From NCBI GenBank assembly GCA_002919235.1, contig PKEX01000047.1:1-42111 (forward strand): DNA of 42,111 nt, written 5' to 3'. Positions 6,214 to 10,178 of the stretch are shown piece after piece (the first letter of the stretch is position 1; every line of letters starts with the position of its first letter). A program made the translations under genes and the position numbers. The notes under the pieces are model-generated. The model was given only the letters and a program-made list of their open reading frames with translations, was not told where the DNA came from and ran no database searches. Source of the stretch: Clostridia bacterium (GTDB lineage: Bacteria; Bacillota; Limnochordia; DTU080; RSA5).

Positions 6214-6537
6214 AGCTGCAGCTTCCGGGTCTGTGGTTGAAAGTCGATGCCAGCCGCAGGCGAAACGACCCACGTAAGGCGACCGAAAAAACACCTTCGT
6301 CGCCGAGCATGGTGCGGCTTAGTGTAAGTCCTGCCCGTTCAACGCGTGATCCACGGTCCGTGCGGTCAAGCCGCAGTGCGAACGTACAGCGCGCGAAGCG
6401 CCTTCGCCGTGTGCGTTTCACCAGTGCCTCGTTGAACGGAGAGGGCTGGCGTGGGACCGTGGAGGGACGGTCCTGCAAGAGCTCCAGCAGGCGAGTGTGG
6501 GGGCAAAGACCAGGTCAGCCGGAAGCTGCAGTTTTTT
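6214..6537 (+). ncRNA. Large structured noncoding RNA upstream of hpf, probable raiA RNA
   Basis: A roughly 320-nt gene-free unit with its own promoter and end. The 5' end (CTGCAGCTTCCGG, 6216-6228) pairs perfectly over 13 bp with CCGGAAGCTGCAG (6519-6531), followed at once by TTTTTT. Inside are a 10-bp long-range helix CCGTTCAACG / CGTTGAACGG (6335-6344 with 6430-6439) and the hairpins GGCGAC/GTCGCC (6278-6304), TGCGG/CCGCA (6361-6375) and GGACCGT/ACGGTCC (6454-6473). A helix GCTGG/CCAGC (6445-6449 with 6484-6488) encloses the last hairpin. A raiA RNA class of large structured RNAs is known upstream of raiA/hpf genes in Bacillota and Actinomycetota. Position and architecture fit that class. 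The family match itself is inferred from context; signatures of RNase P RNA, tmRNA and SRP RNA were not seen. Confidence 0.75.
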
Positions 6538-6963
6538 CGTGGGCAGCCTCTCGTTCGTGGGCAGTTTTGTCGAGCGGTCCGGGCGCGAGCACCCATGCAT
6601 CCCCGCCCTGGCCGTGCTTTCGCGCATCTCCCCCCTGTGTTGGCCATCCACGTGTGTCCTCATTGAACGAGGTCTCATGTGCAACATACAACCTCTCAGA
6701 ACACCGCCCGAATGACGCCTGAAAGCGGCCGCACCCCCGCAGCCCTGGACACACCTTGCCCACCGCCCTGGGTCAAGTGTCCCATCCGCAAGGCCGCGTG
6801 AAGGATGGGATGCACGGGCCTCCGAAGTAATCGTTACCAGACAATTGAGAGCGAGTTTGGGCACGCCGCGTGGGGAGAGGGTGCTGGCTGCACGAGCCGG
6901 CCCTTGCACGGGCGCCGGCAGCAACGCTCCCATCGCATCATCACACGTGAGAGGGGTAGTGTC
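6538..6963 (+). other. Leader region of hpf
   Basis: About 425 nt without a credible gene between the structured RNA and hpf. It contains one hairpin, CCCATCC/GGATGGG (6781-6809), and otherwise no recognised riboswitch. No convincing sigma-A promoter was found. B. subtilis hpf (yvyD) uses sigma-B and sigma-H, whose degenerate sites could be missed by eye. Confidence 0.4.
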
Positions 6964-7548
6964 GTGGCAAACAGCCAGGCGGTGCGAGTGACGGTCAAGG
7001 GGAAAAACATCGAAGTGACGCCGGCTCTGCGGGAGTATGCGGAAAAGCGGGTGGCCAAGCTCAACAAGTTTTTCACCTGGCGGCAGGACATCTCGGTCGA
7101 AGTGACGTTGAGCGTCGAACGGGACACGCACATTGCGGAGATCACGTATTCCATGGGCGGCCTGCTCATGCGGGGCGAAAGCCGCACCAAGGACCTGTAC
7201 GCCTCCATCGACGAGGCCTCCGACAAGATCGAGCGCCAGGTGCGCAGGTACAAGAACAAGCTGCAGCAGTGGGAGCACCACAGCTTGCGCAAGGGTGAGG
7301 CGGCACCGGCTGTCGCTGTGGCGGAGCGGGCGCCTGAGGAAGAGAAAGGCGAGGGAGAGACTCCCCGGGTGGTACGCACCAAGCGGTTTGCCATTAAGCC
7401 GATGGACGTGGAAGAGGCGATTCTCCAGATGGAGCTCCTCGGGCACGACTTCTTCGTGTTCGCCAACGCGGCCACCGATGAGGTGAACGTGCTTTACAAG
7501 AGGAAAGACGGCCACTACGGTTTGATCGAACCCACCCTGGAGGAATAG
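6964..7548 (+). CDS. hpf: Ribosome hibernation promoting factor, long form
   Basis: Dimerises 70S ribosomes into inactive 100S particles in stationary phase. The protein has 194 residues, the long-HPF size. The N-terminal RaiA/S30AE domain is seen in VTVKGKNIEVTPALREYAEKR and the following DLYASIDEASDKIERQVRRYKNKL helix. A charged linker leads to the C-terminal dimerisation domain (KRFAIKPMDVEEAILQMELLGHDFFVF and DEVNVLYKRKDGHYGLIEP). The GTG is chosen because GAGAGGGG lies 7 nt upstream and the family starts there; the frame is open further upstream but has no homology. The gene sits between the flagellar genes and secA-prfB, as in B. subtilis, although 14 kb of chemotaxis genes separate it from secA here. 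Confidence 0.96.
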   Translation: MANSQAVRVTVKGKNIEVTPALREYAEKRVAKLNKFFTWRQDISVEVTLSVERDTHIAEITYSMGGLLMRGESRTKDLYASIDEASDKIERQVRRYKNKLQQWEHHSLRKGEAAPAVAVAERAPEEEKGEGETPRVVRTKRFAIKPMDVEEAILQMELLGHDFFVFANAATDEVNVLYKRKDGHYGLIEPTLEE

Positions 7549-7738: not shown

Positions 7739-8428
7739 TTGAACCAACGGATGCCGACGGCCCAGGAGGTCCAAGACGCGATCGGGCGAGTGCGCGGCGT
7801 GGTGGCCAGCCGGGTCGTCACCAAGGACGGAGCCATTTCCGAGGTGCACGTCCTGGCCCACACCGGGCGCAGCGCCAAGCAGATCGTCCGGGACGTGGAA
7901 TCCGTCTGTGCGGCGCAGTTCGGCATCACGTTGGACCACCGCAAGGTGAGCGTCGCCGTGATCCATTCGCCGGAGAAGGCGGAGCGCCCGCCGCTGCGCC
8001 GTCCGGTCATCTCCGGCGTGCGGGTGGAAACGGGCGGGCGGCGCACGCGAGTGCACGTCACGCTCGGCGTGGGCGACGCCGTCTACGAAGGGAGCGCCGA
8101 AAGCATCGGGGGGGCGGCCCACCGGGTGAAGGTGGCCGCGGCTGCGGCGCTCGACGCTCTCCAGCGGTACGTGGGAGACGGGTGCCGGTTTGAGTTGGAC
8201 GACCTGGTTCCGTTTCACCTGGGCGGGTGGGACGGGTACCTGGCGGGCGTCGTGATGGTCAGCGCGTTCGGCGAGGAGCACCTGGTCGGGAGCGCTCTCG
8301 TCAAGATTGATCCGCTGGATGCGGCCATCCGGGCGGCGCTCGATGCAGTCAACCGCCGGATACCCATTGTGGCTCGTGAGGGGGTTCGAATCAGGGGCAG
8401 CGGGGAGTTGGACGGGGAGTCCCCCTGA
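7739..8428 (+). CDS. Conserved-looking protein of unknown function
   Basis: I do not recognise this 229-residue protein. It appears soluble, with no signal peptide or membrane segment. The N-terminal half (VQDAIGRVRGVVASRVV, then TKDGAISEVHVLA and AKQIVRDVESVCAAQFGI) alternates strands and helices like a small ferredoxin-like alpha/beta domain. The second half has two similar strand-helix units (GVGDAVYEGSAESIGG, VAAAAALDALQRYV). A TTG start is chosen because GGAGGG lies 9 nt upstream; an ATG four codons later has no suitable binding site. It lies between hpf and the second structured RNA, with its own minisatellite-bearing leader. GC-rich third positions across the whole frame support coding. 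Confidence 0.75.
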   Translation: MNQRMPTAQEVQDAIGRVRGVVASRVVTKDGAISEVHVLAHTGRSAKQIVRDVESVCAAQFGITLDHRKVSVAVIHSPEKAERPPLRRPVISGVRVETGGRRTRVHVTLGVGDAVYEGSAESIGGAAHRVKVAAAAALDALQRYVGDGCRFELDDLVPFHLGGWDGYLAGVVMVSAFGEEHLVGSALVKIDPLDAAIRAALDAVNRRIPIVAREGVRIRGSGELDGESP

Positions 8429-8507
8429 GGAAGAGAGCGAAAAACCGGATACACGCAGGCGAAGCCTGGCACGAGCCGATCGAGACGTCGCGCGTCACGA
8501 GATGACC
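8429..8507 (+). other. Short gap before structured RNA 2
   Basis: Eighty bases between the unknown gene and the terminal stem of the second RNA. No clear sigma-A promoter was found here, so the RNA may be transcribed through from upstream. Confidence 0.4.
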
Positions 8508-8748
8508 ATTGGGCCGATAGGGGTACAGGGCGTCATCCAGTGCACGACCTGGTCGACCGACCCGAGCGAAGCGGATGGGGCGCCTAGACCTAGCCGAGCG
8601 AAAGGCGCCACACCAGCAGTCGGGGGGTCTGCCATAGTGACTGCCAAAGCGCTCCGAGTGGTCCTCACCCTCGTGAGCTTGATCTTGGCCGGTGGCGCTA
8701 GCTATACCCGTGCCATGTAATTGAGATCTGTCCTATCGGCCCATTTTT
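8508..8748 (+). ncRNA. Unidentified structured RNA or leader upstream of the HD-GYP gene
   Basis: The two ends pair perfectly over 12 bp (TGGGCCGATAGG, 8510-8521, with CCTATCGGCCCA, 8732-8743), extended by ACAG/CTGT after a 3-nt bulge. TTTTT follows at once. Inside are CCAG/CTGG (8537-8552), GGCGCC/GGCGCC (8579-8609), GCAGTC/GACTGC (8616-8644), CTCAC/GTGAG (8664-8677), and AGCGC/GCGCT (8648-8652 with 8695-8699) enclosing the last one. CCGAC (8557-8561) can alternatively pair with GTCGG (8619-8623), which would break the GCAGTC stem, as in a switch. I see no cobalamin, T-box, GEMM, lysine, FMN, TPP, RNase P or SRP signature. It ends about 30 nt before the HD-GYP start, so it could be a riboswitch-type attenuator for that gene or an independent RNA. 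Confidence 0.6.
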
Positions 8749-8780
8749 GCTACGTCCGCCTTGTCAAAGGGGTCCTGCAC

Positions 8781-10178
8781 GTGGCTCGAGTCGCAATACG
8801 GAGGCCGGAGCTCTTACAGCCCGTCAACCGGAACCAGCCTTGGTACTCGTTCCTCTTCACTGGCGTCCTGTGTGCGCTCGCGTCCTTCACGCTTGTTCAA
8901 AACGACTGGCAGACCTCCGAAGGGCGCTGGCCCTTGATTCTGTTCTTCATGGGCCTTTCCGCCGCGGCCGAGATCCTTTATATCGAGCTCCCGGGGGGCA
9001 AGGGCAGGGTTTCCGCCAGTTTCGGAACCAACCTGGGAGCCGCGCTGGTGCTGGAGCCTCATGAAGCGGCGCTGGTGGCGGCAGGGGGCATCCTTATTGC
9101 CAACCTCATCGAGCGCCTGGCCGTAGACGTCATCGCCTTCAACACGTCCCAGCTCTGGCTCACCGCCTTCGCGGCCGCGCTCGTGTGGAAGGCCCTATGG
9201 CCCGCGGAGGCGCTCCTTCCCATCGAGCCCCAAGAAGTGCTAGGCGTCATGCTCCGGCTGCTGGTGGTGGGGCTCGTCTATTACGTGATCAACCTCACGC
9301 TGGTCAGCCTGAGCATGCGGCTGGCCTACGGGGTCCGCCTCCGGGAGATGGTGGCCAAGAGCGTGCTGTGGGGCATCCCGAGCCACGTGACCGTCGGGAC
9401 CCTAGGATTTCTGATCGCAGTGTTGTACCTCAACATCGGCATCTGGGGCGTCCTGCTCCTCTGGGTGCCGCTGCTTCTCGCGCGGTACGCCTTCCGGCAG
9501 TACGTGGCCATCCGCGCGGCCCACCTTGAGACCATCCAGGCGCTGGCCCTGGCGCTGGACGCCAAGGACCCCTACACGCTGGGGCATTCCGAACGGGTGG
9601 CGGAGTATGCGGAAGAAGTCGGACGCCAGATGAACCTTCCCGAAAGCGAGATCGAGCTGCTGCGGTACGCTGGAATCCTGCACGACATCGGAAAGATCGG
9701 CATCAGCGACGCAGTGCTCAACAAAGTGGGCAAGCTGACGGACGCCGAATTCCGGCTGATCCAGTCCCACACCACTATCGGTGCGAGGGTGGTCAAGCCG
9801 ATGGGCGTGCTGCGCGGCGTCTCACAGGTGATCCGCCACCATCACGAGCGCTACGACGGCCGGGGATATCCGGACGGCCTCAAAGGGGAGGAGATCCCGC
9901 TCGCGGCCCGCATCCTGGCGGTGGCCGACGCCTTCGACGCGATGACGTCGGACCGCGTCTACCGCGCGGGGCTGGCCGTGGACGAGGCGGTGGAGGAGCT
10001 GATCCGGAACAAAGGGACACAGTTCGATCCCCGGGTGGTCGACGTGTTCGTCGAGAAGGTGCTCCCCCGCAAGGTGGAGCTCACCCGCCAAGCGGCTGCC
10101 CGTCGCCAGGACCACGAGGCCCGGGAGCCTCGGGGCGATCAAGTGTGGCGCACGTTCGCCGCCGGCGACGGCGAGTGA
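8781..10178 (+). CDS. Membrane HD-GYP domain protein (probable cyclic-di-GMP phosphodiesterase)
   Basis: Protein of 465 residues. The N-terminal half is hydrophobic, with several membrane segments (for example LFTGVLCALASFTLV and LGFLIAVLYLNIGIWGVLLLWVPLLLA), and probably senses a membrane or extracellular cue. The C-terminal half is an HD-GYP phosphohydrolase. The metal-binding HD is at residues 301-302 in GILHDIGKIG, a histidine run is at 353-355, and GRGYP is at 360-364. These residues are complete, so hydrolysis of cyclic-di-GMP is expected. The GTG start has AAAGGGG 8 nt upstream; earlier in-frame starts fall inside the terminal stem of the preceding RNA and are rejected. Its place between the hibernation and chemotaxis genes suggests a part in the motile-to-sessile decision. 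Confidence 0.9.
   Translation: MARVAIRRPELLQPVNRNQPWYSFLFTGVLCALASFTLVQNDWQTSEGRWPLILFFMGLSAAAEILYIELPGGKGRVSASFGTNLGAALVLEPHEAALVAAGGILIANLIERLAVDVIAFNTSQLWLTAFAAALVWKALWPAEALLPIEPQEVLGVMLRLLVVGLVYYVINLTLVSLSMRLAYGVRLREMVAKSVLWGIPSHVTVGTLGFLIAVLYLNIGIWGVLLLWVPLLLARYAFRQYVAIRAAHLETIQALALALDAKDPYTLGHSERVAEYAEEVGRQMNLPESEIELLRYAGILHDIGKIGISDAVLNKVGKLTDAEFRLIQSHTTIGARVVKPMGVLRGVSQVIRHHHERYDGRGYPDGLKGEEIPLAARILAVADAFDAMTSDRVYRAGLAVDEAVEELIRNKGTQFDPRVVDVFVEKVLPRKVELTRQAAARRQDHEAREPRGDQVWRTFAAGDGE

Follow-up and report, generated by a model that had tools for sequence, protein, structure and literature searches.

A conserved covarying RNA with an enclosed small ORF, found next to MASE9-HD-GYP genes in several Firmicutes classes

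Between the gene for a 229-aa protein, here called UG, and a gene for a MASE9-HD-GYP membrane enzyme, the window (the whole 42,111-nt stretch of DNA that was analysed) carries a structured RNA with a tiny open reading frame (ORF) inside it. By the evidence of Rfam, Pfam, NCBIfam and the open-licence literature, the RNA element is apparently undescribed. We consider it probable that it is a new RNA that acts in cis to limit the translation of a small peptide, and that this peptide, exported or located in the membrane, works together with the MASE9-HD-GYP phosphodiesterase encoded next to it. The RNA, the ∼25-aa gene, which is too small for normal annotation, UG and the membrane c-di-GMP phosphodiesterase occur together in one slot across several Firmicutes classes. 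The initial annotation had placed a structured RNA at 8508-8780 and had overlooked the ORF at 8637-8720; the RNA itself is real, and its true extent is 8510-8748. The features of the window copy and its neighbours are:

7739-8428, + strand: gene UG, 229 aa, invariably the immediate 5' neighbour of the element (by synteny)
8510-8748, + strand: structured RNA, window copy; its outer ends pair and are followed by U5
8510-8521, + strand: P1 5' strand, outer helix of 12 bp, TGGGCCGATAGG, pairing perfectly with 8732-8743
8525-8528 with 8728-8731, + strand: P1 extension of 4 bp, ACAG with CTGT
8550-8565, + strand: 5' strand of the anti-Shine-Dalgarno helix P2, a prediction for the window copy; the family P2 covaries in relatives
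8564-8574, + strand: motif 1, GAGCGAAGCGG, more conserved in the family than any other single-stranded part
8579-8609, + strand: P3 hairpin GGCGCC/GGCGCC, pair probability 0.83-0.86
8596-8603, + strand: second motif copy, GAGCGAAA, in the P3 loop
8620-8634, + strand: P2 3' strand (predicted fold), including the Shine-Dalgarno sequence (SD) of the ORF, GGGGGG, at 8622-8627
8637-8720, + strand: small ORF with GTG start and TAA stop, 27 aa, VTAKALRVVLTLVSLILAGGASYTRAM, from syntenic comparison
8732-8743, + strand: P1 3' strand, CCTATCGGCCCA, beginning 11 nt past the ORF stop codon
8744-8748, + strand: U5 tract (TTTTT) behind P1, resembling a terminator; frequent in Limnochordia but not throughout the family
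8781-10178, + strand: gene for a MASE9 membrane domain plus HD-GYP, GTG start at 8781, SD AAAGGGG at 8766-8772, always 3' of the element

The pairing of the ends over 12 bp plus 4 bp and the TTTTT directly behind them read exactly as first described, and the distance from this tract to the GTG of the HD-GYP gene, given as about 30 nt, is 32 nt. Taken alone, the window RNA stands out only moderately (folding z = -2.0, with 8/200 shuffles equally stable). A 12-bp perfect inverted repeat appeared in 3/2000 shuffles of the intergenic stretch and about twice per shuffled copy of the whole window, and 1/200 shuffles gave a stem as strong as P1. As these window statistics could not settle P1 by themselves, comparative evidence decides. 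In the predicted ensemble the dominant fold combines P1, the anti-SD helix 8550-8565/8620-8634 and the GGCGCC hairpin, with P1 nearly always and P3 usually formed. Two near-equal folds exist, at -104.9 and -104.2 kcal/mol and thus 0.7 kcal/mol apart, and the competing one buries the ORF start codon in GCAGTC/GACTGC. A switch between CCGAC/GTCGG and GCAGTC/GACTGC had been proposed; the two pairings are indeed complementary and mutually exclusive, but their ensemble probabilities are ∼0.00 and 0.14, so that the switch pair as originally drawn is not supported by the predicted folds, although two near-equal folds exist.

None of the 4227 models of Rfam 15 (including 6S, c-di-GMP-I/II, c-di-AMP, ppGpp and raiA) matched over the window element. 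This bears out the initial annotation, in which no known riboswitch was recognised, and the element is likewise no match to 6S RNA, which had been named there as an example of a known family. Within 8300-8950 the search returned only two chance lncRNA hits (E about 3), and no Rfam model matched over the element in the loci of 21 relatives. Neither the RNA nor the peptide was found in Rfam, Pfam or NCBIfam, and open-licence literature on MASE9, on HD-GYP with peptide or pheromone, and on HD-GYP with structured RNA contained nothing on this module. A sigma-70 consensus scan of both strands of 8300-9000 gave no promoter-like site.

When 101 relatives were searched for the RNA at the DNA level, only chance matches appeared, because the sequence is too diverged; synteny alone, through the regions 5' of orthologous HD-GYP genes, revealed the family. 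The order in these regions is the UG stop codon, one P1 strand, GAGCGAAGCGG-type motifs, an SD, a hydrophobic ORF of 24-29 aa, the other P1 strand and the HD-GYP gene. The element is common to 99 oriented loci from Limnochordia, Desulfitobacteriia, Clostridia/Tissierellia and others, which comprise 8 Limnochordia, 7 loci of f8 (one family of the window's class), 30 Clostridia-type loci, 23 model hits and 31 Desulfitobacteriia. Their shared plan consists of the outer helix P1, a helix P2 over the SD of the ORF, and the ORF itself, of 19-34 aa. Tandem AGCGRAGCGG motifs, which number 2-3 and are partly repeat-like, and a P3 hairpin with AGCGRA in its loop are usual, not invariant. In the genome collections, which are samples, UG was present in 33/83 genomes of the class around Desulfosporosinus and in 32/245 of a Clostridia/Tissierellia-type class. 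Nearly all readable Desulfosporosinus-class loci carry the element and the ORF MSKLFKAITVLVTLVLAGGASFRI or close variants of it. The Clostridia/Tissierellia-type core is compact (∼70 nt) and reads UWAGCGRAGCG, P2, P3 with a UUAGCGRA loop, GAG, GGAGG inside the 3' strand of P2, and AUG.

A covariance model of this core, R1, built from 14 Clostridia/Tissierellia-type loci, found withheld members where they were predicted to lie. A blind search of 397 genomes with this model produced 27 matches, one per genome, 2 of which (G102 and G513) were already among the model-building loci. UG lies directly upstream of 27/27 of these blind matches, and tblastn placed an HD-GYP gene downstream in 24/24 matches whose contig was long enough. 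With 27/27 matches confined to the one slot between two genes, an independent small RNA, the other possibility raised by the initial annotation, is unlikely. A blind search for the MASE9 domain recovered the order UG-peptide-MASE9 in 25/29 loci, the peptide being small, hydrophobic and mostly of the GGA type; UG was missing from four loci, one of which lies at a contig edge, while the other three have no peptide. The window slot matches the family, with UG before and MASE9-HD-GYP after, and the window copy shows P1, motif 1, a P3-like hairpin with an AGCGRA loop and a small ORF with a GGA-type C-terminus. With R1, which stems from Clostridia, its score is weak: default filters left no match to it at E ≤ 1, and with the filters switched off a 601-base stretch gave 11.1 bits at 8563 (E = 0.0087), mainly from motif 1. 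By position (synteny), architecture and ORF, the window copy belongs to the family. In a genome of the same family as the window (G001, contig C59, locus L215), UG is followed directly by an HD-GYP ORF without MASE9. This joint loss of RNA, peptide and MASE9 could be a deletion or an assembly error.

To assess P1 across the 99 loci we used the best contiguous stem, as ViennaRNA duplexfold proved too permissive (long weak duplexes swamped the signal). Strands from the same locus paired with a mean of -24.4 kcal/mol compared with -13.5 for strands from different loci, and in 81/99 loci the pairing was better than in all 20 cross-controls; this cross-pairing control rules out a chance inverted repeat as the origin of P1. 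The helix is rebuilt with lineage-specific sequence, as GGCCGAC/GUCGGCC, as ACCGGCACC/GGUGCCGGU or as GGGCGAUAUAGAAGGG/CUCUUCUAUAUCGCCC, and reaches a perfect 23 bp at locus L289. In genome G028 a single bulge hides P1 from the contiguous-stem test, but inspection by eye matches GCCGG-A-GGAAGG to CCTTCC-CCGGC. For P2 and P3, on an alignment fitted to the model, 11/12 pairs show double changes and 91% of cells, a count that includes related sequences, are paired, which 0/500 shuffles reach. On a sequence-only MAFFT alignment the covariation score was 0.325, against 0.188 for shuffled (0/500) and at most 0.12 for slid alignments. When P2 alone was put to the cross-pairing test, most loci of Desulfitobacteriia and of f8 fell short of significance. 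Judged by these sequence comparisons, the element is a conserved covarying RNA, and the comparative evidence for its outer helix is overwhelming. Conservation and covariation in relatives, whose absence would by the initial annotation have argued against a functional RNA, are thus both present in an RNA absent from Rfam. P1 tolerates large insertions on its 5' side (L276) and on its 3' side (L170-L173); at L276 it closes over an extra, near-identical tandem duplication of ∼220 nt between P1 and motif 1.

The first proposal for this RNA was an attenuator of the HD-GYP gene. The near-exclusive tie to that gene stands, but the helix that hides an SD acts on the internal ORF and not directly on HD-GYP. 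A U-tract follows P1 in 7/8 Limnochordia, 5/7 f8 loci and 11/23 loci of the covariance-model set, but in only 7/30 Clostridia-type and 4/31 Desulfitobacteriia loci. Because the tract is mostly absent from the last two groups, P1 is not a general terminator; a stable stem with a U-tract, as in an intrinsic terminator, is found in the window copy and not family-wide. The same distribution bears on leader-peptide attenuation, in which the ORF would sense translation or export, by ribosome position or nascent-chain arrest, and so decide P1 formation and HD-GYP expression. In the window and most Limnochordia, the 3' strand of P1 begins 6-14 nt past the stop codon, close enough to be reached by a ribosome that terminates there, and the U-tract follows in seven of the eight Limnochordia; a hydrophobic N-terminus is also a trait of export-monitoring arrest peptides. 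Elsewhere, however, the gap between stop codon and P1 spans tens of nucleotides or some 100 nt, most Desulfitobacteriia and Clostridia-type loci have no U-tract, and the C-terminus, where arrest motifs reside, is variable (SFRI, NYTWD, TWEI, HHKWR). We regard this explanation as quite improbable.

Restraint of ORF translation, the reading that we prefer, is consistent with the predicted state of the SD. The ORF SD is mostly paired, with a mean unpaired probability of 0.19-0.29 in four of five groups and 0.50 in f8; its burial is only moderately stronger than that of the neighbouring HD-GYP SD, and f8 shows no such trend. In its SD-covering helix, unpaired core motifs, closing helix and covariation, the element resembles translational-control leader RNAs (SD-sequestering riboswitches and protein-binding leaders), but it differs from them in that the controlled SD is that of a tiny ORF inside the RNA, in its single gene context and in having no Rfam match. 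Were it a riboswitch, the AGCGRAGCGG/P3 core would bind a small molecule and switch ORF translation, read-through into HD-GYP or both, with P1 as the closing helix of the aptamer. The compactness of the core, the strong conservation of its two unpaired motifs, the near-equal competing folds of the window copy, the SD-covering helix and the adjoining gene for a c-di-GMP enzyme would all suit such a role. Metabolite riboswitches usually serve several gene families, however, whereas all 27 blind matches lie in a single gene context; the element matches no c-di-GMP-I/II, c-di-AMP, ppGpp or other Rfam riboswitch model; and the motifs vary in number and are partly repeat-like. A riboswitch thus seems rather unlikely to us. 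We also considered AGCGRAGCGG as a CsrA, TRAP or GNRA-hairpin motif; motif variants without GGA speak against the CsrA reading. In the f8 loci L191, L192, L197 and L199, the tandem motif AACCGAACCGG replaces AGCGAAGCGG with the same spacing and G changed to C at two positions, which looks as if the recognising partner may have changed too.

The enclosed ORF varies among loci as a coding sequence would. Among 30 Desulfitobacteriia ORFs, third codon positions vary in 23/23 internal codons, compared with 13 for first and 10 for second positions, and the synonymous fraction of single-base codon differences is 0.62 against an expected 0.27; in the other two frames, 16/131 and 18/143 differences (12-13%) are synonymous. 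By these substitution patterns, the ORF is under coding selection and conserved as a translated gene. The window peptide VTAKALRVVLTLVSLILAGGASYTRAM has a positive N-terminus, a hydrophobic core, GGA and a short aromatic tail. Lys or Arg occurs within residues 2-7 of 98/99 peptides, and a signal-peptide-like N-terminus (basic start plus hydrophobic core) is found across the set apart from four short peptides, those of L293, L299, L300 and L303, only 19-20 aa long, whose short hydrophobic stretch fits export poorly. The f8 slot encodes textbook signal peptides, MKKRIIAILFTVALTLGHAMVALA/DTARFRWPR (...HAMVALA/DTARFRWPR), with an ALA/D cleavage site recognised by eye and marked here by the slash. 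A long-distance closing helix, a sequestered SD and a small hydrophobic peptide recall hok- or BsrG-type mRNAs, and a type I toxin-antitoxin-like locus would combine such a structured mRNA with a small membrane toxin. The single copy in 27/27 genomes, the one slot conserved across distant classes and the lack of any sign of mobility make this very improbable.

The C-termini of the peptides vary, ending for instance in SFRI, NYTWD, TWEI or HHKWR. In f8, a second MASE9-HD-GYP enzyme comes with a peptide of its own, MKWRILYYITVIASFLIASGAHHKWR, but with neither UG nor RNA, indicating that the peptide is tied to the enzyme and not to UG. The two f8 enzyme genes (L047-L055 versus L191, L192, L194 and L196), each with a peptide ORF, differ in peptide type, ALA/DTARFRWPR with UG and RNA and GAHHKWR without. 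Three MASE9-HD-GYP loci outside the module have no peptide, so the enzyme does not always need one. A tiny precursor, a signal-peptide-like N-terminus, an adjoining putative receptor gene and a varied short C-terminus are shared with the SHP-Rgg, Phr-Rap and RRNPP systems of Firmicutes, but in place of a cytosolic TPR protein the putative receptor would be a MASE9-HD-GYP enzyme in the membrane; for such a pairing of peptide and MASE9-HD-GYP, nothing was found in the open-licence literature. RpfG has the HD-GYP output domain in common with it. RpfG, a response regulator, relies on a separate kinase to sense its fatty acid signal, whereas here the sensor domain and HD-GYP form one membrane protein with the peptide gene adjoining.

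The constant place of the element between UG and the enzyme gene hints at an unrecognised peptide-to-c-di-GMP signalling module. More tentatively, it is possible, if doubtful, that the module represents a new class of cell-cell or self-signalling, in which an RNA-gated exported peptide (...GGA/SFRI, ALA/DTARFRWPR) is the ligand of the adjacent MASE9-HD-GYP enzyme and UG, a LeuA-like sensor, the third partner. If so, peptide sensing would be linked directly to c-di-GMP breakdown. A peptide that is either a signal or a subunit of the enzyme would offer a direct and testable answer to the question of what MASE9-type HD-GYP proteins sense and would reveal a new way for RNA to control a signalling peptide.

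For the RNA-restrained peptide as such, we propose a model in which the resting RNA fold would keep peptide translation low, leaving the small gene off by default. A recogniser of the AGCGRAGCGG motifs, be it a ligand, a protein (for example UG) or an arriving ribosome, would open P2 and allow the peptide to be made. The peptide would then enter or cross the membrane, N-in and C-out, and act on the MASE9 domain of the neighbouring HD-GYP enzyme, which would couple peptide output to c-di-GMP hydrolysis; this peptide-receptor step we infer from co-occurrence and adjacency. Where a U-tract follows P1, as in most Limnochordia and also in this genome, P1 may in addition lower read-through into HD-GYP.

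UG has no Pfam or NCBIfam assignment above threshold, Pfam LeuA_dimer remaining below the cut-off (E 0.005-0.035). In its AlphaFold model (mean pLDDT 85), an N-terminal alpha-beta-beta-alpha-beta domain precedes a LeuA/citramalate-synthase-like regulatory domain, and this C-terminal half has the fold of the amino-acid-binding (isoleucine/leucine-binding) regulatory domain of LeuA and citramalate synthase (VIA-align Z 9.8, 3.1 Å over 116 residues to 3f6h_B, with further matches to 1sr9 and 3hpz; Foldseek E 3.7e-6 to 1sr9_B). Given this predicted fold, an amino-acid input to the module via UG is conceivable. Foldseek also gave weak dsRBD-type matches (TM < 0.25), which are no evidence that UG binds RNA; the LeuA-type match is the confident one. 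Paralogues of UG without the RNA lie before secA (L205) and before spoVS (L206, L207).

The first structured RNA of the window, ∼2 kb before the element, is a raiA motif RNA (RF03072, 159 bits, 6220-6527). No conserved ORF is known to be enclosed in raiA RNA. Like the element, the raiA motif, or ModT, is a large conserved structured RNA of Bacillota; the two differ in sequence and structure, and RF03072 matches only 6220-6527 and not 8510-8748. ModT in C. difficile is reported to be an RNA that 'coordinates growth and virulence' (PMC11706538). In the window, the raiA motif lies upstream of the gene for the ribosome hibernation factor HPF (ORF 6805-7548, with the domains in 6955-7545).
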